DNA of 45,153 nt from Candidatus Saccharimonadota bacterium (lineage in GTDB: Bacteria; Patescibacteriota; Saccharimonadia; Saccharimonadales; OFTM59): the NCBI GenBank assembly GCA_029260875.1, contig JAJDCL010000003.1, positions 1-45,153 of the forward strand, read 5' to 3'. Shown piece by piece: positions 31,682-45,153 of this stretch; positions within the stretch are counted from its first letter, which is position 1, and each line of letters begins with the position of its first letter. Position numbers and translations under genes: made by a program. The notes under the pieces were generated by a model that worked only from the letters and a program-made list of their open reading frames with translations, did no database searches and was not told the origin of the DNA.

Positions 31682-31710
31682 TTGACTCTTAGCTAACAGA
31701 TGTGTATACT
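31682..31710 (+). promoter_or_regulatory. Sigma-70 type promoter for leaderless rpmE
   Basis: TTGACT (31682-31687), 17-nt spacer, TATACT (31705-31710), then 9 nt to the rpmE ATG. It is the best -35/-10 pair in the window and leaves a leader of at most about 3 nt. Confidence 0.7.
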
Positions 31711-31719
31711 GGCCGGGTT

Positions 31720-32073
31720 ATGAAGAAAGACCTTCACCCTAATACATATCGTCCGGTTGTCTTCCAAGATCTGTCAAATGGCTGGTCTTTTTTGACACGC
31801 TCTACCGCTCCTACCGAAGAGACTGTCAAATGGGAAGACGGCAACGAATACCCTCTAGTCAAAGTTCACATCTCTAGCGCCTCACATCCATTCTTTACTG
31901 GCCAAGAAAAACTTTTGGACATTGAGGGTCGCGTTGACAAGTTCAAGGCACGTCAAGAAGCCGCCAAAGCTAAAGCAGATGCTATGAAAAAAGCTGCCAA
32001 TAAGACGCGGGTCAAAGAGCCTAAAGCCGACGAAACTCAAAAAATCGGCTCACTCAAGCCCGGCCAACGCTAA
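31720..32073 (+). CDS. rpmE: 50S ribosomal protein L31, type B, with basic tail
   Basis: A 117-aa protein. [21 protein letters not shown] and [18 protein letters not shown] are the L31 type B signature. There is no CxxC, so it is the zinc-free form. A tail of about 35 residues rich in Lys, Ala and Glu extends beyond the usual 80-90 aa. I use the ATG at 31720: an in-frame GTG at 31702 lies just before and overlapping the promoter region and cannot be on the mRNA if the -10 is right. An intrinsic terminator follows. prfA and prmC lie downstream, as in Bacillus (rpmE-prfA-prmC region). Confidence 0.95.
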
Positions 32074-32086
32074 CTATAATTGCCCT

Positions 32087-32124
32087 AAAACCACTTCTTA
32101 CTACATGTTGAAGTGGTTTTTCTT
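32087..32124 (+). terminator. Intrinsic terminator after rpmE
   Basis: AAAACCACTTC (32087-32097) pairs perfectly with GAAGTGGTTTT (32110-32120) around a 12-nt loop, followed by a T-rich run. It separates rpmE from prfA. Confidence 0.8.
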
Positions 32125-32130
32125 TATACT
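32125..32130 (+). promoter_or_regulatory. Possible -10 for prfA
   Basis: TATACT directly after the rpmE terminator, 11 nt before the prfA ATG. AGGAGG lies between, so the box may be fortuitous; if used, the Shine-Dalgarno would be cut by the start site. Confidence 0.3.
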
Positions 32131-32141
32131 AGGAGGTGCAA

Positions 32142-33197
32142 ATGGATGCTAAACAGCAAATTTTACGCGAAGAGTACACTGCCCTACAGGAAAAACTGCA
32201 GGACCCTGAAATTTTTGCTTCTAGAAACTATCCCAAAATGGCTAAACGACAGAAGTATCTGGAAGAAACCTTGGAATTATTTGACACACTAGAACAACTT
32301 GATAAACAAATAGCTGAGGCTAAAGAGCTAGCCCAAACCGGTGGAGAAATGGCCGAGCTGGCCGACAATGAGCTCAAGGAGTTAACTGCCAAAAAATCAG
32401 AAGTAGAACAGTCACTTACGGAGGCTATGACACCTAGAGACCTTAACGATGACAGGGATGCAATCATTGAGATCCGCGCTGCTGCTGGCGGTGACGAAGC
32501 CAGCCTTTTTGCTGGCGAGCTCTATCGCATGTACGCCCGATGGGCAGAAACAAAAGGGCTCAAGCTAGAGATTATTAACGAAAGCCCGTCCGAAGCTGGT
32601 GGGTTTAAGGAAATCATCTTTGCTGTGCGAGGAGATAGTGTTTATAGGCAGCTCAAGTTTGAAGCAGGCGTTCACCGTGTACAGCGAGTACCTGTCACAG
32701 AAAGCCAAGGCCGCATCCACACCAGCACCGTGACCGTAGCCGTTATGCCTGAAGCGGAAGAAACAGACGCAGAAGTCAAGCCCGCCGACTTACGAATAGA
32801 CGTCTATCGTAGTGGTGGCAACGGTGGCCAGAGCGTCAACACAACCGATTCCGCCGTACGCATAACTCATCTGCCCACAGGACTGGTTGTAACCTGCCAG
32901 GATGAAAAATCACAGATCAAGAATAAGGATAAAGCCATGGGAGTTCTCCGCGCGCGGCTTTTGCAGATGAAGCTTGATGAAGAGCAAAAACAGATGTCAG
33001 ACGCACGCAAAAAACTAATTGGCTCCGGCGATCGCAGTGAAAAAATCCGCACGTATAACTTCCCCCAAGACCGTATTACCGACCACCGCATCGGCTACTC
33101 TCGCTCCAACATCCCAGGTGCTTTGGGTGGCCAAATCGACGACCTTATCGAACAATTACAGACCGCCGAGCATCAAGTTATTGCCAATGAAGCTTGA
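32142..33197 (+). CDS. prfA: Peptide chain release factor 1 (RF1)
   Basis: A 351-aa factor that terminates at UAG and UAA. The PxT discriminator is PVT in [10 protein letters not shown] (about residue 184), and the GGQ is in [10 protein letters not shown] (about 229). The N-terminal coiled-coil domain is complete. The ATG at 32142 has a perfect AGGAGG at 5 nt; a GTG two codons earlier overlaps that site and is rejected. It overlaps prmC by 11 nt, the gene for the methyltransferase that modifies this GGQ. The stop is TGA, read by RF2. Confidence 0.97.
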
Positions 33198-34005
33198 AGA
33201 GTGGCTTAAAAACACCACTCGGTTACTTGCCGATTCTAGTATTCCAACAGCCAGGTTGGATTGTCTGGTTTTACTCGAAGACTCTATTGGCAAAGACCGA
33301 GCGTGGCTGCTGGCACATCCGGAGTTTGAGCTTTCTTTGACCCAGGCAAAAAAACTAGATAGTTTGGTAAAGCGCCGAGCAAACCATGAACCGCTGGCCT
33401 ATATTCGTGGTAAAAGTGAATTTTATGGGCGAGAGTTTATGGTGAACTCCCATACTCTAGAGCCACGCCCAGAGACAGAAACAATGATTGACCTACTGAA
33501 ATCTTTCAACTGTAGCGGCCCAATAGTTGATGTCGGTACTGGTTCGGGATGCCTAGCAATTACAGCTAAATTACAGTTTCCAGACGCTACGGTTTACGGA
33601 ACCGATATTGACGCCAAGTGTGTTGAAACTGCGCAACAAAACGCCAAGAGACACAGTGTGAAGGTGCAATTTTTTGTTTGTGATCTGCTTGAGGCCGTTC
33701 TTCTCACACCCTACCATCTGCCCGCTATCGTAATAGCCAATCTGCCTTATGTGCCAGACAGTCACACCATTAACCCGGCTGCGATGTTCGAGCCAAGACA
33801 CGCAATATTCGGGGGCGTTGATGGTCTGGATTATTACCGGAGGTTGTTTGTTCAGATTGATAAGCAAGCTAGTAGGCCAACCTACATATTTACCGAGTCC
33901 CTGCCTTTTCAGCATAAAAGCCTTGGCGAAATCGCAGGCCAGCACGGGTTTAGACAAGTAAAAGCACAAGACCTTATACAAGTTTTTAAGCTTACGGGTA
34001 GTTGA
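33187..34005 (+). CDS. prmC: Release factor glutamine methyltransferase
   Basis: A 272-aa SAM-dependent enzyme that methylates the Gln of the GGQ motif in RF1 and RF2. An N-terminal helical domain (about 1-75) is followed by the Rossmann domain with [13 protein letters not shown] (SAM motif) and VYGTDID. The substrate-binding NPPY motif appears as NLPY (VIANLPYVP), a variant of the usual sequence. I use the ATG at 33187, 11 nt inside prfA; the frame is open further upstream but that part only shadows prfA. It is convergent with htrA, with stops directly abutting. Confidence 0.92.
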
Positions 34006-35193
34006 CTATAACTGCGGAGCAGCTTCTAACTTGACCCTGATCTCTTGTTCGTTATTATCGCGAACCACTGTGAGCACAACTTCTTCACCTACACTATGCC
34101 GACCAATAAGAGAAACCAAACTACGCCTTTCGTCAATTGCCTTACCAGCTACTTTGATGATTATGTCTTTTTCTTTCAAGCCAGCCTTCGCGGCTGGGCT
34201 ATCAGGCAGTACGGATGGCTGGCCGGGTCTCGTTGGTACTATATACGCACCCCTGTTAACGCTAAGGTTATATTCATACGCGTAGTCGTCAGTTAGCTGC
34301 ACATAACGCACACCGAGGTATGGTCGCTGTACTTTGCCGGTCTCCAGAACGTTGGCAATTAAGCCCTTAACGTCATCTATTGGTATAGCAAAGCCTATAT
34401 TTTCCGCTCCACCTCCGGCAATAGCCGTATTCACCCCTATGACTTGTCCGTTAATATCAACCAGTGGGCCGCCCGAGTTACCTTGATTAATTGCTGCATC
34501 TGTCTGAAAGAGGTTCTGAAGTGTCTCTGTCCCACTCTCGTCAGAGGCCTCTAAGTTTCGGCCATACCCGGACAACACCCCTGTCGTAACTGTGTTCTGA
34601 AACTGCCCTAGCGCATTCCCTATTGCTATTACCCTAGAACCAACCTCCATCTGCTCTGACTGACCCAACTGAACCGGTTTTAGCTGCTTTCCCTTAGCAT
34701 CTTTAATTTTTAAGAAGGCAATATCAAGAGGGTCAGAGCTATTGGTGCGCCCAAGAACCTCAACGTCTTCTAGCTCTGTGCCATCAGAAAGCGTGACACT
34801 TACCTGACTTGCTCGGTCTGGTATAACATGACGGTTTGTAAGTATGATGCCGCTTTCGCTAACAATAAAGCCTGTGCCGGCACTTGCTTGCCTAACAGAC
34901 CGGTCAAACCCGAAGAAATCGGTAGTGGTTGTCTCGCTAATAATATTGACCGATACAACACTTTGCCCAACCTCTTTAGCTATATTGCTAATAGCCTGAC
35001 TTTCATTTAACACTAACTGCCGCGCTTCACTGGTGTCTACGTTCCCTGTTTGATTCTGTTGGCTTTTCGCGCCCAGCCAACCACCAACAAACCCGGCCGA
35101 AACACTTAATATTAATACCCCCGCAACTATAAGCAGGTGTCCGCGCGCAAGAGCGCTGCTCATCACTCCCTTGGGTATTGAGTTGTCTGCCAT
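34006..35193 (-). CDS. HtrA/DegP-type serine protease with PDZ domain
   Basis: A 395-aa membrane-anchored protease for envelope protein quality control. One membrane segment (about 19-40) is followed by the trypsin-like domain with His122 (LTNRHVI), Asp157 (PLDIAFL) and Ser240 (QGNSGGP). One PDZ domain ends the chain (about 290-390, DSPAAKAGLKEKDIIIKVAGKAI). The ATG has GGAGGG at 5 nt. A TATAAT (35216-35221) lies about 23 nt upstream, giving a short leader. It is convergent with prmC. Confidence 0.95.
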   Translation of the reverse strand: MADNSIPKGVMSSALARGHLLIVAGVLILSVSAGFVGGWLGAKSQQNQTGNVDTSEARQLVLNESQAISNIAKEVGQSVVSVNIISETTTTDFFGFDRSVRQASAGTGFIVSESGIILTNRHVIPDRASQVSVTLSDGTELEDVEVLGRTNSSDPLDIAFLKIKDAKGKQLKPVQLGQSEQMEVGSRVIAIGNALGQFQNTVTTGVLSGYGRNLEASDESGTETLQNLFQTDAAINQGNSGGPLVDINGQVIGVNTAIAGGGAENIGFAIPIDDVKGLIANVLETGKVQRPYLGVRYVQLTDDYAYEYNLSVNRGAYIVPTRPGQPSVLPDSPAAKAGLKEKDIIIKVAGKAIDERRSLVSLIGRHSVGEEVVLTVVRDNNEQEIRVKLEAAPQL

Positions 35194-35215
35194 AATGTCC
35201 CTCCGTCAACTTATC

Positions 35216-35221
35216 ATTATA
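35216..35221 (-). promoter_or_regulatory. -10 box for htrA
   Basis: TATAAT on the minus strand, 22 nt before the ATG, with GGAGGG in the leader. A conventional leadered promoter. Confidence 0.5.
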
Positions 35222-35227
35222 TAAGTC

Positions 35228-35989
35228 TTAGATAGTTTTATCACCCCAATCCGAGAAAACAATAACCACAATAATAATAGCGATCATAATAAAAATAAAC
35301 TGACGTCTTAATAGGGCTGAAAGCCGGTCAGATTGTTCTAAGTAATATAAGGCACCTAGGCCAAATCCCAGTACCGTTAGTAGGAGCGTCGGCTGTGATA
35401 CAACCCCGTAAAACAAAAGGTAGTGGCCCAACACCCAGGCAAGCGCAGCAGCAAAATATCCCCACGTATGTGCAAAAAGCGGGGCATAAGGCTCATCAAA
35501 GTTCGTAAAGAAGTGCCTGGCTGAAACGTAACATATAAAACCTGATAGAAGCACTAAGACTACTAACGGCTTCTCGCTCCACGCCAGCCAAAGCGCCATA
35601 AGCCCGATGGTCTGGCCCGTCAGAGCCTGGATCGACACCATGAACGTGCCAGAACGCGGTTTTAATATCAGTAACCAGAGAACATACACTCCCGCCCATA
35701 CCAACTTAGCTAGGCCATTATCCTGGCCAGGACCTGACTCAACCATAAAAACCAAAACCGAGAGCCCCACAATTATGTCCACAGCATTCGCACGGATGTT
35801 GGGCCACCAGTGTCTCGGACGCACGGCGAACATCCGCCATTTGCTTAAAAGGATCGTCGCTAGTGCTAATGGCACGAACGTTAACCGTACAAAAATAAAA
35901 ACCAGCACTGGGATCAACACCGTAAATGCTAAGTGAATAAAATGTGCAAAGCCGCTTTTGGGTTTAATTTTGGAGGCGATTTTGTTCAT
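35228..35989 (-). CDS. Polytopic membrane protein, function unknown
   Basis: A 253-aa protein with about eight hydrophobic segments (starting AFTVLIPVLVFIFV) and short loops. WRMFAVRPRHWWPNIRANAVDIIVG looks like a conserved loop. ARHFFTNFDEPYAPLF and HTWGYFAAALAWVLGHYLLFY are other features. I do not recognise a family. The ATG at 35989 is chosen; a TTG three codons earlier is possible. The 5' end overlaps the LCP gene by 26 nt, and TATAAT (36001-36006) lies 11 nt upstream within LCP coding sequence. htrA follows after 34 nt. Confidence 0.75.
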   Translation of the reverse strand: MNKIASKIKPKSGFAHFIHLAFTVLIPVLVFIFVRLTFVPLALATILLSKWRMFAVRPRHWWPNIRANAVDIIVGLSVLVFMVESGPGQDNGLAKLVWAGVYVLWLLILKPRSGTFMVSIQALTGQTIGLMALWLAWSEKPLVVLVLLSGFICYVSARHFFTNFDEPYAPLFAHTWGYFAAALAWVLGHYLLFYGVVSQPTLLLTVLGFGLGALYYLEQSDRLSALLRRQFIFIMIAIIIVVIVFSDWGDKTI

Positions 35990-37604
35990 TCTGTCCAAGT
36001 ATTATAACAAAGTCCGCTTCACCAGGCACAATACGACTGTCCGGCAAACTATTAACTACGCTGACACCAAAACGCTTTTCAAGATAAGCCTTCGTATACT
36101 TTTTAGACCCGTTGCGCAAATTCACAACGGTAGTTCTCTGCTGGTCCTTAATGGGTGAGTTAGCAACCTCGCTGATGTTATATCCGTAGGACTCCAGCTC
36201 TTCAGCGGTCCTAGCAGCCAAGCCAACCACATCGGTGCCATTGAATACTGCCACGGTGGCGTTTTCGTTTCGTAGGTAACCATCCTTCAGATGATTGCGG
36301 ACAAAGCTGTGTATGTCTTTATAATTATTGATACCGGCTTTTGGTATCTGAGCTGATGCCCCACCAATATTTGCACTACCAATCAAGACGTTGGGCGGAT
36401 CTACCAGGCTGATTGACTGAATTTTATCGCCACCGATTTCTGAGCCGATCTCACGTAAGCGCAACATTTCGCTAGGTGTTAGGTTGGTTTGCACATGGTC
36501 ACCAAAATCACTCATTAGCTGATTAAGTTTTAGCGGGTTAGCCAAGGTGCTCCGGGAAAGAATCTTGTCTTTTAAGGCAATTAACATCTCACGCTGCCTT
36601 TCGGATCTGTCAAAATCGCCTCTAGGGCTAGTATGTCTAGATCTAGCGTACGCAAGCGCACGAAAGCCATCAAATGTCTCCTGCCCCTTTTTCACGTTTA
36701 GGGTATATTTGCGCCCGTCTATACTCATCACCTCATAAACAGGATCATCTACATCAATAGTTATCCCGCCTACTGTGTCAATCGCCTTTTTGAAACCTTC
36801 AAAATCAACCATAGCATGATAATGGATGGGCACGCCCATAGTTGTTTCAACAACTTTTTCTACAGCAGCAAACCCTGCCTCCTCGCTCCCGGGTTTATCT
36901 TTTGGATTTTTAGTTAGGTGTGAGTTGCGTGCAATCTTATAGACGGCGTTTATCTTCATAGACCCGTATTCTGTCTTGATATAAAAATCTCGCGGGATAC
37001 TCAGCAAAGCAGCCTCTTTCTGGATAGGGTCAATACTTACCAGCAAAATGGTGTCGGTGAGATAAGAACCATTGTCGTGGTCCTCACCACCCGTGCCTAA
37101 TAGTAATATGTTTACTCTTCCGTCGCCTTCGCCGTTCAGGGTCGCTGGATCGGCATTTTCATGGAGTGCAGCCGCACCGCCACCACCCTTAAAAATCTGT
37201 CTGGCCTTTAGATATCCCTTACCAAATAAGTAGCCACCCATAATTACACTTATAAGAAAAAGTGCGATCATGCCCTTCAAGGCGAATCTGGTTTTTCCGA
37301 TTCGCAAGAAACGTCGGTGTCGTTTTTTTGATGAGCCAGCGGGTTGGGCCAGACTTGCAATCACGCTTGATTGGGTTCCGGAACGTCGCTTATCGTTATT
37401 TTGAGAGCCGTTCTCTACAGAAAAATAACGATTATTGCGATCAAGCCCATCTTGCTGAAGTTGTGATGCTGGTCTGTATGAGGTGTGCCGTTTAAACTGA
37501 AATCCCGCGTCACCAGGCCGAGACTGCCCGCGCACCAACCCATCTATTGGTTTTGGTTGTTGGTTTTTAGCTGATCTATGACGTCTAAAGTTATCCATCG
37601 GCAT
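35964..37604 (-). CDS. LytR-CpsA-Psr (LCP) family cell-wall ligase
   Basis: A 546-aa membrane-anchored enzyme. By family knowledge it transfers lipid-linked glycopolymers to peptidoglycan. A long basic, Gln/Arg-rich cytoplasmic part (about 1-105) is followed by one membrane segment (about 108-128). The LCP domain (about 165-385) carries LLLGTGGEDHDNGSYLTDTI, LLSIPRDFYI and RGDFDRSERQ with the conserved Asp and Arg residues. A LytR_C domain (about 465-525, VAVFNGTDVVGLAARTAEEL) ends it. I choose the ATG at 37604 because TATACT lies 7 nt before it; an upstream in-frame start would precede the promoter. It is divergent from lepB. Confidence 0.9.
   Translation of the reverse strand: MPMDNFRRHRSAKNQQPKPIDGLVRGQSRPGDAGFQFKRHTSYRPASQLQQDGLDRNNRYFSVENGSQNNDKRRSGTQSSVIASLAQPAGSSKKRHRRFLRIGKTRFALKGMIALFLISVIMGGYLFGKGYLKARQIFKGGGGAAALHENADPATLNGEGDGRVNILLLGTGGEDHDNGSYLTDTILLVSIDPIQKEAALLSIPRDFYIKTEYGSMKINAVYKIARNSHLTKNPKDKPGSEEAGFAAVEKVVETTMGVPIHYHAMVDFEGFKKAIDTVGGITIDVDDPVYEVMSIDGRKYTLNVKKGQETFDGFRALAYARSRHTSPRGDFDRSERQREMLIALKDKILSRSTLANPLKLNQLMSDFGDHVQTNLTPSEMLRLREIGSEIGGDKIQSISLVDPPNVLIGSANIGGASAQIPKAGINNYKDIHSFVRNHLKDGYLRNENATVAVFNGTDVVGLAARTAEELESYGYNISEVANSPIKDQQRTTVVNLRNGSKKYTKAYLEKRFGVSVVNSLPDSRIVPGEADFVIILGQNEQNRLQN
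36001..36006 (-). promoter_or_regulatory. Possible internal -10 inside the LCP gene end
   Basis: TATAAT on the minus strand, 11 nt before the ATG of the unknown membrane protein. It would give a leader of about 4 nt. As it lies in coding sequence, chance is possible. Confidence 0.35.
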
Positions 37605-37611
37605 TCTATTT

Positions 37612-37617
37612 AGTATA
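37612..37617 (-). promoter_or_regulatory. -10 box for the leaderless LCP gene
   Basis: TATACT on the minus strand, 7 nt before the ATG at 37604. It decides this start over upstream in-frame codons. Confidence 0.5.
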
Positions 37618-37672
37618 CAGGTTATCTTAAAAGCTGTGCTAGCTTCTTGGTGCACATTTCAGAGAAGTAAGG

Positions 37673-37678
37673 TATAGT
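37673..37678 (+). promoter_or_regulatory. -10 box for lepB
   Basis: TATAGT on the plus strand, 12 nt before the lepB ATG, so a leader of about 5 nt. It is back to back with the LCP promoter. Confidence 0.4.
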
Positions 37679-37690
37679 GTTAGGCTGGAT

Positions 37691-38353
37691 ATGGAACAGC
37701 TAAACACTATACCACAGGCGCCCCCGAATGGGTATTATTCGGACTCATCTACCGATCCCCAAGAGCCCAAAGAAGGCTGGAAAAGCGTTTTATCGACAAT
37801 ACTTATCATAATAGCTGCGCCAGCAATCGCCTTCATGCTGACTACTTTCGTGTTCCAATCTTACGAAGTTGACGGCGAAAGCATGGAGACAACACTGCAG
37901 CATGAGGATCGGCTAATTGTACTAAAAACCGGCAAGACTTGGGCGAGGATTACCAATAATGACTACTTGCCTAACCGCGGTGAAATAATAGTATTTGAAC
38001 AGAATAGCGCTATATCTGATCAGCAAGAAAACGGCGAGTCTAGACAACTTATAAAGCGAGTAATTGGCTTGCCTGGCGAACGAGTCGTGGTCAAGGATGG
38101 CTCAATAACAGTTTTTAACGACGAGTTCCCCTTGGGTTTCAACCCCGATAAAATCGGTGATTATAATGACGGGGTCTCTGAGACAACCCCTCAAAACGTT
38201 GATATTGTAGTGCCCGAGGGCGAAGTATTTGTTTGCGGCGATAACAGGCCTAACTCCAGTGATTCTCGTTCGTTTGGTACTGTGCCAGCAAAAGATATTA
38301 TGGGCAATTTGGTGTTGAGAATATACCCGTTCAGTAAGTTTGATCGGTTTTAA
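37691..38353 (+). CDS. lepB: Signal peptidase I
   Basis: A 220-aa membrane protease that removes signal peptides after Sec export. A Pro-rich start is followed by one membrane segment (about 33-55). The catalytic Ser64 is in DGESMETTL and Lys122 in LIKRVIGLPGE. The C-terminal box is VFVCGDNRPNSSDSRSFG. This is the single-anchor Gram-positive type. The Pro of the usual SMxPT is Thr here. It is divergent from the LCP gene and convergent with parB. Confidence 0.95.
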   Translation: MEQLNTIPQAPPNGYYSDSSTDPQEPKEGWKSVLSTILIIIAAPAIAFMLTTFVFQSYEVDGESMETTLQHEDRLIVLKTGKTWARITNNDYLPNRGEIIVFEQNSAISDQQENGESRQLIKRVIGLPGERVVVKDGSITVFNDEFPLGFNPDKIGDYNDGVSETTPQNVDIVVPEGEVFVCGDNRPNSSDSRSFGTVPAKDIMGNLVLRIYPFSKFDRF

Positions 38354-38380
38354 AATTTTACTATTAATTTGTTTTCGGTC

Positions 38381-39268
38381 TTAATCGCTCAACTTTTTCA
38401 GCAGCTGTTTTAGGTGGTTGTCGTCGGTAAAGTTAATTTCAATACGACCACCTTTTGCTGTGCGCTTTAGTGTAACTTGAGTGGCAAGACGCTTAGATAG
38501 TTTTTCTGTGTCTGATGTTTTAGTTGCCATGTGCGTACGCAATCTTGCGCCACTATCTTTAGCCTTCGCATCAGTGGGTCTCTTTAGGGCTATAACAAAC
38601 TGTTCCGCCTGGCGCACCGTCCATCGTTTCGTTTGTATCAGTTTTAGGAGTTCCGCTTGATCTTTTGGCGAATCCCTTAATGACAGTATTGCGCGCGCGT
38701 GCCCCTCGGTAATGCTTCCCGCTTGCAGAGCTTCGCGCGCAGCAATCGGCAAATTCAGAAGTCGCACAATATTATTAATAGTTGTTGGTGCCTTGCCCAG
38801 ACGCCTGGCGACATCAACGTATGTCATATTAAACTCTTGGTGCAGCTTCTCTATTGAAACGGCCTGCTCAAGTGGCGAAAGATCTACGCGCTGAACATTT
38901 TCTATTAAAGCTATCTCAAGTTTTTCCTGCGATCTTACAGAGCGCACAATTACAGGGATACGTTCTAGTCCGGCAATTTTGGCTGCACGCCAACGCCTCT
39001 CGCCTGCTACTATTTCATATTTATTGTGTTCAAGTGGAGTGACTACTAGCGGTTGGATTATTCCATAGCGTTTTATAGATAGTGCCAGCTCTTCTATAGA
39101 GGTCTTATCAAACTGAGTGCGTGGTTGTCCGTTGTCAGGTGATATGTCCTTGATGAGCAAATTTTGTATTCGTTCGCCTTGGTTTAGGAGAGCCGCTGTA
39201 TCAAGATTTTTAGGTATGAGTGTATCAAAACCCCTCCCAAGACCATGAGATTTATTATTGTTCGGCAC
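38381..39268 (-). CDS. parB: Chromosome partitioning protein ParB
   Basis: A 295-aa centromere-binding CTPase. It begins with LGRGFDTLIP, the ParA-interacting end, then the ParB/Srx domain with YEIVAGERRWRAAKIAG (CTP-binding box). The HTH region VARRLGKAPTTINNIVRLLNLP and SITEGHARAILSL follows, and the chain ends in a short dimerisation domain. Its ATG lies 14 nt inside parA. I looked for a parS-like 16-mer (TGTTTCACGTGAAACA) in the window and did not see one. Confidence 0.95.
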   Translation of the reverse strand: MPNNNKSHGLGRGFDTLIPKNLDTAALLNQGERIQNLLIKDISPDNGQPRTQFDKTSIEELALSIKRYGIIQPLVVTPLEHNKYEIVAGERRWRAAKIAGLERIPVIVRSVRSQEKLEIALIENVQRVDLSPLEQAVSIEKLHQEFNMTYVDVARRLGKAPTTINNIVRLLNLPIAAREALQAGSITEGHARAILSLRDSPKDQAELLKLIQTKRWTVRQAEQFVIALKRPTDAKAKDSGARLRTHMATKTSDTEKLSKRLATQVTLKRTAKGGRIEINFTDDNHLKQLLKKLSD

Positions 39269-40016
39269 GCTCTATTACCTCCTGTGCAAGATGCTTATAC
39301 GCACGGGCGCCCTTGGACCATTTGTCATGTTCTAGAATTGTCTTACCATAACTTGGAGCTTCCGCCAGACGCACATTCCTAGGGATAACCGCATTAAATA
39401 TTTTGTCGCCAAAGTGCTTTACGAGCTCTTCTTTTACCTGCGATGAAAGACTAGTCCGTGAGTCATACATTGTTAAGACTACGCCCAGTAACATTATGTC
39501 GGGGTTCAACCCCTCCCTTACTTGCTGGATGCTAGCCAAAAGTTGACTCAAACCTTCAAGCGCATAATATTCTGCTTGTACTGGAATTAAGATTTTGTTG
39601 GCAGCTGCCAACGCGTTAACCGTTAGCAAGCCGAGGGCTGGGGGGCAATCAATCAGTACGTAATCAAATGATGCATTGGCAAGGCTTCTTTTTAAGAATA
39701 ACTCGCGCGATTCAGAACCAACCATATCTATTTCAGCTGCAGCAAGATCGGCGTTACTCGGCAATATATTCAATCCGCTTAAATTCGTTGTTTTAATCGT
39801 ATCTTCTAGCTTTGATCGCTTAAATAGCACGTCGTACAATGTGTAATCAAGGCTGTGTTTATCTATTTGAAGGCCACTTGTGGCATTTGCTTGCGGATCA
39901 GCATCTACCACCAAAACACTTCTGCCTGCTCTTGATAGATAGGCAGCCAAGTTAAGGGTTGTCGTAGTTTTGCCCACTCCACCTTTTTGGTTTATAACAG
40001 CTATTACATGACTCAT
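39255..40016 (-). CDS. parA: Chromosome partitioning ATPase ParA (Soj type)
   Basis: A 253-aa deviant Walker ATPase. The N-terminus is MSHVIAVINQKGGVGKTTTT (deviant Walker A with the signature Lys), then VLVVDADPQANAT and YVLIDCPPALGLLTVNAL. No N-terminal HTH is present, so it is the chromosomal rather than the plasmid P1 type. It works with ParB to move the replication origin region. TATAAA lies 7 nt before the ATG with no Shine-Dalgarno (leaderless). Confidence 0.96.
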   Translation of the reverse strand: MSHVIAVINQKGGVGKTTTTLNLAAYLSRAGRSVLVVDADPQANATSGLQIDKHSLDYTLYDVLFKRSKLEDTIKTTNLSGLNILPSNADLAAAEIDMVGSESRELFLKRSLANASFDYVLIDCPPALGLLTVNALAAANKILIPVQAEYYALEGLSQLLASIQQVREGLNPDIMLLGVVLTMYDSRTSLSSQVKEELVKHFGDKIFNAVIPRNVRLAEAPSYGKTILEHDKWSKGARAYKHLAQEVIERAEQ

Positions 40017-40230
40017 CGCTATATTTATAACTCCGTGTCTTTACCCCTAAGCCTAGCACGATACCCATCCCAAGTAAACGAGCTTTCGGGCATGAAAAGC
40101 TGTAACTAGTATTATATGGCTAGCGCATAACTGGCTACTATTACGGTCAGTTTTAGTAAAACCCTATAAAGGTACGAGCTGATGCGCGCATACTCACGCC
40201 TTGATCGAATAAGTGACAAAAAATAGCAGC
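40017..40230. other. 214-bp region between the giant surface-protein gene and parA
   Basis: No gene seen. On the minus strand TATAAA at 40024-40029 is 7 nt before the parA ATG. A second TATAAT (40111-40116) could give a parA transcript with a leader of about 90 nt. AGCTTT...AAAGCT (40081-40101) is a 6-bp inverted repeat. No clear terminator follows the giant gene. Confidence 0.4.
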
Positions 40231-43200
40231 CTAGTTGTTGCCTATGATTATCCAGTTGGAGCCGTCACTGACCACCGTTATGTATTTGTATTGGGCGGCT
40301 AGGTCGTAGTGCTCTGCCCCGTCTATGGTTTGGCCGTCCACCGTCATCAGTTTGACCAGGTTGCTGGTAGCGTCCGTTTTCTTGACAGTATATTGGCGTC
40401 CCGCTATACCGACGGCTGACGGTAGCGTCGCTTCAAAGGTCTCTATAGCGGCATCGGCGGTGATGATGCTGTCCAGACCTGTAATCGTGTGGTCGGTAGT
40501 CGCAGCCCCGATAGCCGTAGTTATGCCACCCTCTATCTTAAGGTTGCCCTTTACGGCTAGGTCACCCAAGACCTCTAAGCCACCCTCTATTCGTGTGTCC
40601 CCTGTCACCACCAAACTGGCAGTCTGGATTAAGTTAGTAACCGTCAAGTTGGCAATTGTGGCTGCGCCCGTAACCGTCAGGTTCTGAATCGTACCTGTAC
40701 CGGTAACATTTAGAGCGCTCAATGTGCTCTGGCCGGAAACGTTCAGAGTTGCGATGTCCAGTTGTTCAGTGCTAGGATCAGCGTAACTAGTAGTAACAAA
40801 GATCATGACATTGTCTTTGCCGGTGCCGGGTGCCCAGCCTTCCAGGGCTTTACCGATCATCTGGCCACGCTCAGTAGCTTTCATACCGCGCCCAGGACTG
40901 GCTGAGGTGGTGATGTAGTCGCCAGGTAGTATTGGAGCAGAATCCGCAGCTATTTTAACGATTACACGGCCGCTTAGAGCTACAGGTTTTGGGTTGTCCT
41001 CGGGCTTGACTGTGCCATGGCCAACTGACGAGAAGTCACCATAATTTTCTGACGTGACACCAATTAATCCTTTCTCGTACTTTGCGGTTGATTTCATCAG
41101 TTTGGCTACTAAGCGCGGGCCGTCTGAAGTAACACGACCGTTGATGTCTATATTAGAGCTGCTGGTTTCCACCAGCTCGTCACTAACGACCACTATTTCA
41201 CCGTACACGACATCGTCTTTAGTCGGATAGATTTCGGCGTAGTCTGCTACTGGCGTACCAGAACAGTCATTAATTAGGCTTCCGCCGGAGTTATCCCAGC
41301 AAAGAGCTGCTGTGCCAGAAGAGGCAAAGCTGCCAATATACAGATCTCCGCCAACAACCAGCTTTGCCTCGGTTGGAGTATTATCGCCGATGCCGACGTT
41401 GCCGTCAGAGCGAAGAGAAAGGACGTCTATAAGGTCGGTTGTGGTTGTGTGGGCAAGGGCTATATCTAGTTGTGTTCTCGGCTGAAAACCGGTTGTATCC
41501 CATCTTGACATGTCAAATCTAGCAGCTCCTGCATATGAAACAATAGGTGTACCGTCGCGCATAAGAGTAAGCACGTTACTTCTTGCTGCGTTTTGTGCTG
41601 CTCCAACGCTTGATATAACAGCACCTGTATTCGTATAAGAAAGACTGTTGTCTGTGTCAACCCCGTCACCAGCATGAAATATTGCACTTGGGGATGAGTT
41701 GCCTACGCCTACCCGCTTGTTGGCTGTAATTCTCATGACTTCTGATAGTGTAGTGCCTGATGTGGTTCTAAAAACTATGTCTGTATCAAGAACAGATGCG
41801 GTGTGTGTTGCGGATGCCAGAGCGCGGATATCAGCGGATAATAGTCCCGGGGCTGTAAGATTTGTGTCGTTACTGAAGAAGTCAATTCCACCTATTAGGT
41901 TACCTGAGGTTATAGCCTGTCTGTCGCTTCTGAGGTTAATCTGGCTTGTTGTCGCGTCTGTGGCATTAATTGTGAGCTTGCGGTCAGGATCTGTGTTGCC
42001 GATGCCTATCCTACCAGTACTGTCAATTGTCATCCGGGCAGCAAATGCTGTGCCATCGTATATAACAAAGCTTCCTCCAGGAGCTATGGCTGAGCTGTTG
42101 TTGGTGGCACCGAACTGATAGCTTCTTCCCCCTGTCCCTGTGTTTTGTATATTAATCTCTACTTCAGGTTCGTTAAGCGAGATGTGAAGATCGCTTGTAG
42201 GACTGGTATTGGCTCCAATACCGACATTGCCGTTTGCTGCGATTCTAAAAACCTCTGATAGTGTAGTCCCCAATGTAGTTCTAAAGACTATGTCAGTATC
42301 AAGAACAGATGCCGTGTGTGTGGCGGATGCGAGAGCGCGGATATCAGCGGATAATAGTCCCGGGGCTGTGAGATTGGTGTCATTGCTGAAGAAGTCAATT
42401 CCACCTATTAGGTTACCTGAGATTATAGCTTGTCTATCACTTCTGAGGTTAATCTGGCTTGTTGTCGCGTCTGTGGCATTAATTGTGAGCTTGCGGTCAG
42501 GATCTGTGTTGCCGATGCCTATTCTACCAGTGCTGTCAATTGTCATCCGGGCAGCAAATCCTGTCCCGTCATATATAACAAAGCTTCCTCCGGGGGCGAT
42601 AGCTGAACTGTTGTTGGTGGCGCCGAATTGATAGCTTCTTCCTCCGGTTCCTGTGTTTTGTATATTAATTTCTACTTCGGGCTCGTTAAGTGAAATATGG
42701 AGATCACTTTGGGGGCTGGTGTTTGCACCAATACCGACATTGCCGTTTGCTGCAATTCTAAAAACCTCTGATAGTGTAGTTCCCAATGTAGTTCTAAAGA
42801 CTATGTCAGTATCAAGAACAGATGCGGTGTGTGTTGCAGACGCGAGAGCCCGAATGTCAGCAACTTGTAGCCCTGGCGCTGTAAGGTTGGTATCGTTACT
42901 GAAGAAGTCAACTCCACCTATCAAGTTACCCGACGTGATGGTAGTTCTTAAGCTTCTTAGATTGATTTGGCTCGTTGAGGTGTTTGATGCTGCGATTGTC
43001 AGCTTACGGTCCGGATCAGTAAGTCCTATACCTACACTATCTGTTGAAGTAGTTAACCGTACAGCAGTGCCGTCATCCGTCCAGCCTCCACCTGTGGATG
43101 ATGCGAAGCTTTGGAATGCTGAACAGTCATTGGAGTATTCCAGTTGATTTACTGTACCGTTGTAACGAAGACAACCTTTGTTGGTTGTATCGGTGTTGTT

Positions 43201-45153
43201 GTCTATGCGAAGGTTGCCTATTAGGTGTAGTGGATCATTTGGTGCAATAGTCCCTATCCCCACATTGCCACCCTGGAAGGCTGCGGCGTATGAGTTGGTT
43301 GAGCCAGACTGAGTGTCTACAAACAATCCATAGGATAATTCGGTTGAGGCTTGACCTTGGTTTTCAATACGTATACCGTAGTTTTCTTGTGTCCCAGCGC
43401 CAGATGTGCCAGCTATGGCATTTATTATTAATCCGTACGTTGATTGTATGCCCCCCGCTCCAATAGAGTTATTAGTGGGTGCTATTTGTATTCCTGATAA
43501 TTGAGCAACTCCCGAAGTGTTTGAAGAACTGTGAACAAAAGGCACGTAAAGCAAAGCTGTTGCGCTGTCTGCGCCCAAACCATAGCTAGCAGCTATTCTT
43601 TGTTGGCCGGTTATATCAAGATTGTAAGTAGGACTGCTCATACCTATGCCCACGTTACCGCTCACTATCAATCCGTTGGCCGGGGCGGCGTTTGCGCCAG
43701 CGTAGGTGCCTACGGCCAGACCACCATTGACATCCAGTTTTGACAGAGGAGACACCGTGCCTATGCCAACGTTACCGCCGTTTAAAGCAGTCAGCACTGG
43801 GTCTGGACCACTTTGTAATGTAAAGCTACCTACACCGTCATCAATAAAATCATAGTTTAGAATAGAATTACTAGCAGCTTTTAACGTGCCTATGCCCCCG
43901 GTGTAGCTTAGGTTGTTGTTGCCATTCAGACCAACAAAGAAGGTTGAGTCTACGATTATGTTACCGCCAGAAACATGTAGTTTTGCGCTAGGCCCAGTTG
44001 TCCCAATCCCCACACTGCCGTTTTTGATGCTGAGTACATCAGTCCAGGTGTCAGCACCGGTTGGGGATTGGAAGGTTAGTCTTCCGGTGCTGTAGCTGGC
44101 TCCGTCAAAGACACTGTATATTCTGCCCGAGTTAAAGAGTGAGCTACCTACTGGATTTATGTCATTGTAGAACACCATGCCAGTACCGGCTGTTTGCCCA
44201 GCGGTGTTGGAGAGTCTGAGAGTGTTGTTGGTAGCTGATGCTGAGTTTATTTTTACTTCTAGTAGGTTGCCTGGCGCGGTGGTGCCGATGCCAACGTTGC
44301 CGCTTGCTTCAAGGACTATTAGATGAGTAGCGCTTGCCCCCGAATTTCGTATATTAAAGCTACTGCCAGCTCCAAGGTCGTTGTAAATACCAGCAGAAGT
44401 AAGTATAAGAGCGCCAGCGTTAGCTGTTATGAAGTTATTTGTAGCACCAGCGTTGATCGCCAGCCCCTGAGTAGTTGCATCAGGACGATAAAAGCGTAAG
44501 TTACCACCCGTATTTATACGTCCGTCTCCATTAACATCTAGTTTAAACCCTGGACTAGTCGTACCGATACCCACTCTGTCTGTGCTGCCCTGCACAAATA
44601 AAGTATTACTGTCTACGTTGAGGTCTGCTCCGTTGTAGGTAAGGCCTGCACCGCTAGTAAGACTGTTGGTGCCGTTAAAGTAAGCGACCTGGTTGCTAGC
44701 GCCCATACCTGTGACGCCACCACCCGTAGCACAGCTGCCCCAGCTTGGAGCTACGCCTACTCCACCTGAGATTAGGCAAGAGCCAGTCGCAACGTCCGCC
44801 AACCTGCTGAGCGTTGTAGCACCTGAGGCATAGAGAATGTCACCTATAGCATAGGTCGCATTACCCGTACCACCTCTAGCCACAGTAAGGGTACCGGCGG
44901 TAAAGAAGCTACCGGCATCAGCATGGGAAACATTCTGTAGAATGCCAGCAGAAGTGATGCGAGTAGTGCCGTTCGTTTGTAGAGCACCCGTAACATTGAC
45001 GTTAGTGGCGGTGAGACGGATAGTGCCGTCTGTGTCGTTATCTATCGTCTCTCCGTTTTGGAGACTTATGTCGGTGGTTAGACCGATGTTACTAAAGCTT
45101 AGGCCTGTGCCGGAGGCGGCGCTAACCGTAATTGCGCCACTGGAGGTCACGCT
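40231..45153 (-). CDS. Giant fibre-like surface protein (3' part, cut by the right edge)
   Basis: At least 1640 residues, still open at the right edge. The visible N-side holds LTVARGGTGNATYAIGDILY, a tail-fibre-type motif. It is followed by at least 13 copies of an xVGIGTxxP motif that mark beta-rich repeat units, three of them in near-identical 171-aa tandem units. At about residue 1303-1457 lies DYAEIYPTKDDVVYGEIVVV...KPVALSGRVIVKI...GRGMKATERG, similar to C-terminal auto-processing or chaperone domains of phage tail spikes. A Val/Thr-rich 6-residue periodic stretch follows (SALNVTGTGTIQNLTVTG, about 1465-1545). The end (about 1555-1639) is a small domain with VDGQTIDGAEHYDLAAQYKYITVVSDGSNW. 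Export signals would lie beyond the edge. An attachment or host-contact fibre is likely (inference); no other phage genes are near. Confidence 0.8.
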   Translation of the reverse strand, partial: SVTSSGAITVSAASGTGLSFSNIGLTTDISLQNGETIDNDTDGTIRLTATNVNVTGALQTNGTTRITSAGILQNVSHADAGSFFTAGTLTVARGGTGNATYAIGDILYASGATTLSRLADVATGSCLISGGVGVAPSWGSCATGGGVTGMGASNQVAYFNGTNSLTSGAGLTYNGADLNVDSNTLFVQGSTDRVGIGTTSPGFKLDVNGDGRINTGGNLRFYRPDATTQGLAINAGATNNFITANAGALILTSAGIYNDLGAGSSFNIRNSGASATHLIVLEASGNVGIGTTAPGNLLEVKINSASATNNTLRLSNTAGQTAGTGMVFYNDINPVGSSLFNSGRIYSVFDGASYSTGRLTFQSPTGADTWTDVLSIKNGSVGIGTTGPSAKLHVSGGNIIVDSTFFVGLNGNNNLSYTGGIGTLKAASNSILNYDFIDDGVGSFTLQSGPDPVLTALNGGNVGIGTVSPLSKLDVNGGLAVGTYAGANAAPANGLIVSGNVGIGMSSPTYNLDITGQQRIAASYGLGADSATALLYVPFVHSSSNTSGVAQLSGIQIAPTNNSIGAGGIQSTYGLIINAIAGTSGAGTQENYGIRIENQGQASTELSYGLFVDTQSGSTNSYAAAFQGGNVGIGTIAPNDPLHLIGNLRIDNNTDTTNKGCLRYNGTVNQLEYSNDCSAFQSFASSTGGGWTDDGTAVRLTTSTDSVGIGLTDPDRKLTIAASNTSTSQINLRSLRTTITSGNLIGGVDFFSNDTNLTAPGLQVADIRALASATHTASVLDTDIVFRTTLGTTLSEVFRIAANGNVGIGANTSPQSDLHISLNEPEVEINIQNTGTGGRSYQFGATNNSSAIAPGGSFVIYDGTGFAARMTIDSTGRIGIGNTDPDRKLTINATDATTSQINLRSDRQAIISGNLIGGIDFFSNDTNLTAPGLLSADIRALASATHTASVLDTDIVFRTTLGTTLSEVFRIAANGNVGIGANTSPTSDLHISLNEPEVEINIQNTGTGGRSYQFGATNNSSAIAPGGSFVIYDGTAFAARMTIDSTGRIGIGNTDPDRKLTINATDATTSQINLRSDRQAITSGNLIGGIDFFSNDTNLTAPGLLSADIRALASATHTASVLDTDIVFRTTSGTTLSEVMRITANKRVGVGNSSPSAIFHAGDGVDTDNSLSYTNTGAVISSVGAAQNAARSNVLTLMRDGTPIVSYAGAARFDMSRWDTTGFQPRTQLDIALAHTTTTDLIDVLSLRSDGNVGIGDNTPTEAKLVVGGDLYIGSFASSGTAALCWDNSGGSLINDCSGTPVADYAEIYPTKDDVVYGEIVVVSDELVETSSSNIDINGRVTSDGPRLVAKLMKSTAKYEKGLIGVTSENYGDFSSVGHGTVKPEDNPKPVALSGRVIVKIAADSAPILPGDYITTSASPGRGMKATERGQMIGKALEGWAPGTGKDNVMIFVTTSYADPSTEQLDIATLNVSGQSTLSALNVTGTGTIQNLTVTGAATIANLTVTNLIQTASLVVTGDTRIEGGLEVLGDLAVKGNLKIEGGITTAIGAATTDHTITGLDSIITADAAIETFEATLPSAVGIAGRQYTVKKTDATSNLVKLMTVDGQTIDGAEHYDLAAQYKYITVVSDGSNWIIIGNN
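41744..43025 (-). repeat. 513-bp tandem repeats inside the giant gene
   Basis: The string GATAGTGTAGT recurs at 41744, 42257 and 42770, exactly 513 bp apart, and the surrounding sequence stays nearly identical for two full units and about half of a third. 513 bp is 171 codons, so copy-number change would keep the frame. Each unit encodes IDFFSND, DIVFRTT, VGIGANTSP and IGIGNTDPDRKLTI segments. Confidence 0.9.

Follow-up and report, generated by a model that had tools for sequence, protein, structure and literature searches.

The locus and the reconstructed gene

The window, the whole stretch of 45,153 bp analysed here, is a complete contig (C13) of a 0.999-Mb genome in 32 contigs (95.8% complete), a size consistent with the reduced genome that the initial annotation had perceived. 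Its right end is occupied by a single open reading frame on the reverse strand. The gene and its parts are listed below. Residue numbers are those of the 1,640-aa product of this frame (P0001), except that "full-length" denotes the joined 2,439-aa protein.

40231..45153 (-): giant fibre gene, 3' part (1,640 aa and stop), 5' end open at the contig end
45013..45153 (-): overlap with the end of contig G001:C14 (L038 10719-10859), 141 bp, exact
43174..44343 (-): shaft block, full-length residues 1070-1459, 85.6% identity over 390 aa to the OFTM277 syntenic gene
41245..43173 (-): shaft block, full-length residues 1460-2102, no ungapped match above 50% in the OFTM277 orthologue
41683..43056 (-): 171-aa shaft module, about 2.6 copies, period 513 bp, residues ~700-1150
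40765..41244 (-): gp12-type intramolecular chaperone (auto-processing) domain, residues ~1304-1463
41233..41244 (-): DYAE motif (D1304, E1307), predicted cut before D1304, aligned with D692 of phi29 gp12
40234..40710 (-): stalk and C-terminal domain, 73.6% identity in OFTM277 despite a different chaperone upstream
40234..40527 (-): C-terminal trimer-type domain, fold of TSP4 78-178, Solidus gp83 610-699 and T4 gp9/gp10

The final 141 bp of the window matched, base for base and in frame, the end of a contig (G001:C14, 24,858 bp; L038 and L096) binned with the genome of the same-genus relative OFTM277, a Ca. Saccharibacteria MAG (G001; the window's own genome is G000). Adjacent contigs of a k=141 assembly graph would show a 141-bp end overlap of this kind. 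Flanking genes of the window and of its syntenic place in OFTM277 (G001:C15, L005) shared only 74-80% DNA identity. OFTM277 was the only named relative found, and on this ground the window genome is taken as Saccharibacteria. Gene names being read from sequence, ileS was present twice in G001, on C7 and C14, the two copies having 85% protein identity to each other; G000 had no ileS and gave only 25-34% matches, read as other tRNA synthetases. C14 ran parallel to C7 over ~17 kb of aligned stretches (78-86% DNA identity), and a 9-kb piece of C14 had no match in G000 and two in G001. Because the overlap is exact and ileS is missing in G000 and doubled in G001, C14 is very probably a piece of the window's own genome that was misplaced in the OFTM277 bin. 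The completeness figures of both MAGs would be affected by this misbinning.

The frame joined across the overlap had 2,449 codons and encoded 2,439 aa from the ATG, the adjoining part lying at L038 8322-10859. The window shows only part of the gene and the full gene is longer, a statement that rests on the join to a contig binned with another genome. The joined gene order is ileS, a 282-aa membrane protein, fibre A (1,542 aa), the giant fibre, parA and parB. A PDB search with the C-terminus of fibre A alone found nothing. parA (39255-40016), noted from the start as lying beside the fibre gene, is its downstream neighbour together with parB (38381-39268). The other neighbours identified by Pfam scan were signal peptidase S26, an LCP protein, a trypsin-PDZ protease, PrmC, RF1 and L31. 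Another 5' fibre fragment of 563 aa, at the left end of G000:C12 (L083 1-1689, reverse strand, cut by the contig end), was considered as the missing N-terminus and showed no exact end overlap with the window. Because G001:C14, not C12, overlaps the window end exactly, the C12 fragment was taken as the start of a further fibre gene. Its product begins with a long cytoplasmic stretch and has one membrane anchor, which looks uncleaved; gyrA- and gyrB-like genes (names read from sequence) lie nearby.

The signal peptide that the initial annotation had hoped for beyond the contig end appeared once the 5' end was placed on G001:C14, and its assignment to the window fibre rests on acceptance of that join. 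The joined protein starts with MNKQIQ and has one hydrophobic stretch (18-42) and, as read from sequence, a signal-peptidase site between V-E-A and A. Its 14 cysteines form 7 close pairs, which fits the expectation for a protein outside the cytoplasm.

A beta-rich domain of ~130 aa, the LNFQARL domain, directly follows the signal peptide. Alignment of 8 rows from 7 genomes (L038, which is the window's own copy, L039, L042 twice, L050, L040, L045 and L080) had 19 invariant columns. At E <= 1e-3, the profile matched 72 of 239 genomes from the phylum, the longest of the matching frames having 7,471 aa; G000 scored as a miss because its copy sits on the other contig. The best PDB match of the profile had E 0.25, which is not significant. 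The structural model was weak (mean pLDDT 67; best Foldseek E 7e-3) and had no clear PDB relative, and a search for the domain in plasmids gave nothing.

Shaft, chaperone domain and tail

Fibre-like GIGT repeats had been reported over the 1,640 residues, and the count bears this out. Thirteen [VIL]G[IV]G loops were found, each with P and L/F after it, as in VGIGTTSPGFKL, and with a spacing of 39 to 130 residues. In 2,000 residue shuffles, the short motif had a mean of 0.77 (maximum 5) and the long motif a mean of 0.021 (maximum 1). The block at 41245..43173 holds the 513-bp repeats and is related to the phrog_9942 tail-fibre family and to phage tail proteins. Copies of the unit lie at 41719-42018, 42232-42531 (92%) and 42745-43044 (76%); Tandem Repeats Finder found no array because its maximum period of 500 is below the 513-bp unit. 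The sole significant phmmer match of the 1,640 aa in the PDB was Bd2133, a Bdellovibrio mosaic adhesive trimer (MAT) fibre of solved structure (8ond, E 4e-4), a modest match within a compositionally biased repeat region in which three loops of each protein were aligned. PHROG tail-fibre families matched at 2.2e-29 (phrog_9942) and 6.2e-19 (phrog_18345), and the shaft repeat module matched 12 phage records, mostly marine, at 29-36% identity.

The late region that had been likened to auto-processing domains corresponds to residues ~1304-1463 and has the fold of the phi29 gp12 C-terminal chaperone. The suggested comparison with tail-spike chaperone domains was made with a profile of 28 aligned rows, 21 of which contained the gp12-type domain (alignment A1). 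In the PDB it scored best against the phi29 gp12 C-terminal fragment (3gqh, E 2.7e-4); next came a tailspike chaperone domain (0.026) and then the phi29 capsid fibre (0.04). A domain-only profile placed full-length gp12 (6qz9) first with E 5.1e-4. Weak PDB rows for profile A3, to Teneurin-2 (E 0.17 and above) and Bd3460 (E 0.05), were set aside.

An AlphaFold2 single-chain model of residues 1255-1640 had a mean pLDDT of 72.9. Within the gp12-type domain, 10-residue means ranged from 56 to 98 and were at least 95 at model residues 141-200. The model matched uncut gp12 (3suc) with Z 12.6 (rmsd 3.4 over 120 residues, 21% identity) and the cut fragment (3gqh) with Z 12.5 (rmsd 2.7 over 115 residues, 23% identity). 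Model residue 50 (D1304) aligned with gp12 residue 692, the first residue of the fragment. At the cleavage point, 21 of the 21 A1 rows with this domain carry DxAE or DxSE; this D and this E are presumably the cutting residues in phi29. With Foldseek alone, phage capsid decoration proteins (8pkh) ranked first and 3gqh 27th. Because capsid decoration proteins stand above gp12 in this ranking, the gp12-type fold is evidently common to non-cutting proteins.

Searches of the whole protein against Pfam and NCBIfam gave nothing useful, the gp12-type domain staying under every Pfam cut-off; against Peptidase_G2 (PF11962) it had no match up to E 5. Among 99 relatives, PF11962 exceeded its cut-off as a frame sum in 2, of which L075 reached 22.3 against 25 bits by hmmscan and L076 had no match up to E 0.1. 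The gp12-type domain was present in 71 of 99 genomes (own and relatives), 30 of which have it in a frame of >400 aa; in the remaining ones it lies mostly in a membrane protein of ~280 aa (cf. L037 3472-4296). Multiple copies also occur. A single frame of 4,697 aa at G066:C1 432267-442328 had six gp12-type profile matches, and L042 (3,203 aa) had two.

The last ~98 residues matched the folds of trimer domains in CBA120 TSP4 (Z 12.9), Solidus gp83 (12.8), T4 gp9 (10.6) and T4 gp10 (10.0). In TSP4 and T4 gp9/gp10 the matched domain is far from the C-terminus, whereas in the window fibre it is at the protein's end. Sequence matches of this domain were two E. coli phage proteins and proteins of 189-244 aa from other genomes of the order. 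Many relatives of the fibre end instead in an H-lectin-like domain, which was below the Pfam cut-off wherever reported. Four proteins of 224-244 aa (L009, L012, L017 and L020) have an early ..LP...GD.G.WG..LN.F.. stretch and the window fibre's tip domain at the end; they look like small phage-type fibre proteins.

Different chaperones at the same locus in two species

The syntenic gene of OFTM277, which has the same neighbours, encodes an S74 domain (35.5 bits, cut-off 22) with S and K retained, as SNAALK, and no gp12-type domain. An S74 domain in the window protein was considered and rejected, being absent from the Pfam scan. S74 was found in 24 of the 99 genomes (own and relatives). The window's own genome encodes two other S74 proteins. 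These are paralogues of 956 and 959 aa (L035 2084-4951 in G000:C20; L036 441-3317 in G000:C14), each with a signal-peptide-like start, a C-terminal S74 domain with intact SDRRLK and no GIGT loops.

The two fibres were compared without gaps, the OFTM277 gene being available as two contig pieces (C7 and C15). Full-length residues 24-200 had 78.5% identity to the C7 piece; identity to the C15 piece was 85.6% at 1070-1459 and 73.6% at 2281-2439. In residues 201-1069 and 1460-2280, only two blocks exceeded 50%, at 469-509 (41 residues) and 798-844 (47 residues). An OFTM277 stretch between the contig pieces is possibly missing, which bears on 201-1069 and not on 1460-2280. Seven neighbouring proteins had 76-90% identity between the two species. 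Going by the block identities, the fibre ends and the middle block were inherited, and parts of the shaft and the chaperone were replaced. Judged by sequence, the chaperone is swapped at one locus, gp12-type in the window and the unrelated S74 in OFTM277.

In OFTM277, a transposase-like gene (L005 4996-5613, reverse strand) lies between the fibre gene and parA; in the window, only 214 bp separate the two. Its product contains MPNHLHLL, which we take to be the Y1/RAYT motif, and the gene may have a part in module exchange.

Proposed function and alternative explanations

Saccharibacteria live as episymbionts on other bacteria. We consider it rather likely that the frame covers the last two thirds (3' side) of a gene whose product, of ~2,439 aa, is exported to the cell surface of a Saccharibacteria-type episymbiont as a probably trimeric fibre, with the build of a phage tailspike and the mode of action of the MAT fibres of Bdellovibrio. 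Cleavage, trimerisation, surface display and host binding we infer from the resemblance to MAT fibres and phi29 gp12 and from the episymbiosis of Saccharibacteria. The chain would be exported by the Sec route through its N-terminal signal peptide, and the LNFQARL domain would then lie at the cell surface, as in the MAT model. Three chains would be wound into a long beta shaft with the VGIG..P..L loops, whose homology is seen, as caps; the gp12-type chaperone and the C-terminal trimer domain, to judge from their folds, may fix the trimer's register. That the folded chain would be cut before D1304, as in phi29 gp12, is suggested by the conserved D and E and by where they lie. Such a cut would release the C-terminal folding cassette and expose the variable shaft end as the binding tip, which might then bind a glycan or wall polymer of the host bacterium.

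According to the description of Bdellovibrio bacteriovorus MATs (PMC10769870), in each of the 21 the signal peptide is directly followed by a beta-rich domain of ~130 aa for which the PDB has no structural homologue. The window fibre has a domain of this size in this place, also lacking PDB relatives; the comparison is by description and suggestive. Both have a long beta shaft with capping loops, those of the window matching Bd2133 in sequence, and a mosaic build with S74 or other C-terminal modules. Unlike MAT fibres, the window fibre comes from Saccharibacteria, has 2,439 aa instead of ~1,000 aa, and carries a gp12-type chaperone, not S74, followed by further domains. We did not file it as a MAT, since the likeness of the N-terminal domain is one of description and the trimer is putative, the structure prediction covering a single chain.

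With phi29 gp12 (3suc, 3gqh, 6qz9) and Peptidase_G2 (PF11962), the window protein shares the C-terminal chaperone fold and DxAE at the cleavage point. It differs from gp12 in being cellular and, by prediction, exported, and in having a stalk and a second trimer-type domain after the chaperone. Its sequence is below the Pfam cut-off of Peptidase_G2, and it was not filed under PF11962 for this reason. In phi29, the virion lacks the chaperone, and the appendage attaches to wall teichoic acid and digests it. The S74 or endosialidase-type chaperone (PF13884; K1F endoNF, T5 pb1, MyRF) occupies the same fibre position at the OFTM277 locus, whereas the window protein has a different auto-processing domain in its place.

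We propose, tentatively and as something well short of probable, that the fibre of these episymbiotic Saccharibacteria is MAT-like and serves recognition, and that gp12-type and S74 domains, two unrelated phage self-cleaving chaperones, are interchangeable in it at one locus. The chaperone and the conserved C-terminal trimer domain would form a disposable folding cassette that is removed after assembly. The shaft end left behind, kept variable as modules are exchanged with phage and with sister fibres, would decide which host cell is recognised. We prefer a removable cassette because two unrelated self-cutting chaperones with their reactive residues kept precede the same tail, and because a long variable region directly precedes the cut. 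The conserved C-terminal domain downstream of the chaperone is odd and counts against a simple discard.

That domain is one ground for an alternative, namely that the gp12-type domain is a permanent trimerisation knob without self-cleavage and that the attached C-terminal domain (phage-type in the window, H-lectin-like in many relatives) is the receptor-binding tip. We regard this as a serious possibility, though not as the probable answer. The chaperone has a further domain behind it in the window gene, in the S74 orthologue and in relatives with H-lectin-like ends; the tail is conserved; and the same fold occurs without cleavage in phage capsid fibre and decoration proteins. However, the cleavage-point D and E are retained in every domain row, and the catalytic S and K are intact in the unrelated S74 that replaces the domain. 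If the tip were retained, it should be the fastest-varying part, but between the species it is the tail that is conserved and the shaft upstream of the chaperone that differs.

A more general function at the surface or in biofilm, with no role in host binding, seems possible but rather unlikely. The wide occurrence of the N-terminal domain in the phylum, including lineages of unknown host, would agree with such a function, as would the lack of a known ligand. However, PMC10769870 describes a tailspike build and the swapping of modules as typical of recognition fibres, and Saccharibacteria, which depend on host contact, are said in the accessible literature to need adhesins beyond pili.

An assembly artefact, a chimera in which several fibre genes were fused into the giant gene, is improbable. 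Both contigs terminate inside the gene, and shaft repeats are present within it and between paralogues, but the 1,640-aa part is stop-free inside one contig, the join is an exact in-frame overlap, and the gene order on either side is common to both species. The PHROG tail-fibre matches, the similarity of the shaft module to cyanophage and Pelagibacter phage tail proteins and that of the C-terminal tip to two E. coli phage proteins would suit a tail fibre of a prophage or phage-derived chromosomal element; this origin is very improbable and was ruled out, since the neighbours are housekeeping genes, the Pfam scan of ten window proteins at 31702-45153 found no phage structural protein, no viral contig was found to encode a relative, OFTM277 keeps the same gene order, and a signal peptide is unexpected for a tail fibre. 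The initial annotation had named two outcomes that would speak against its surface fibre, a missing export signal and neighbouring phage structural genes; neither occurred, because the signal was found once the 5' end was placed and no such neighbours were among the ten proteins scanned.

No description of such fibres in Patescibacteria was found in the open-licence literature, taken exclusive of bioRxiv and subscription papers. A Tn-seq study (Cell 2023) mentions envelope proteins that are essential and contain VCBS, dockerin and FnIII domains, and a T4P study expects further close-range adhesins. For host recognition by Patescibacteria beyond type IV pili, the accessible literature names unspecified adhesins, and the giant fibre is a concrete candidate. 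Its predicted cleavage point can be tested, its chaperone is swappable, and a pair of sister species differs in exactly that module. If the proposal is true, the predator Bdellovibrio and an episymbiont lineage share a tailspike-like solution for gripping other bacteria.

An LNFQARL-type beta domain was also observed after the signal peptide of the ~280-aa membrane protein, which is encoded at L037 3472-4296 (reverse strand; G000:C5, 61.5 kb) and has relatives at L026, L027, L034, L038 2387-3232 and L053 5746-6675. On our reading, the hairpin of two helices at its C-terminus, GITSVGRNPLSKK, resembles an ATP synthase c subunit (no Pfam match). The genes after it in L037 carry ATP-synt_ab (220.9 bits) and ATP synthase gamma (54.7 bits) domains, and the window genome also has an ordinary c subunit, on C31. 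This raises the question of whether the L037 locus encodes a second, divergent ATPase with a decorated c-like subunit.
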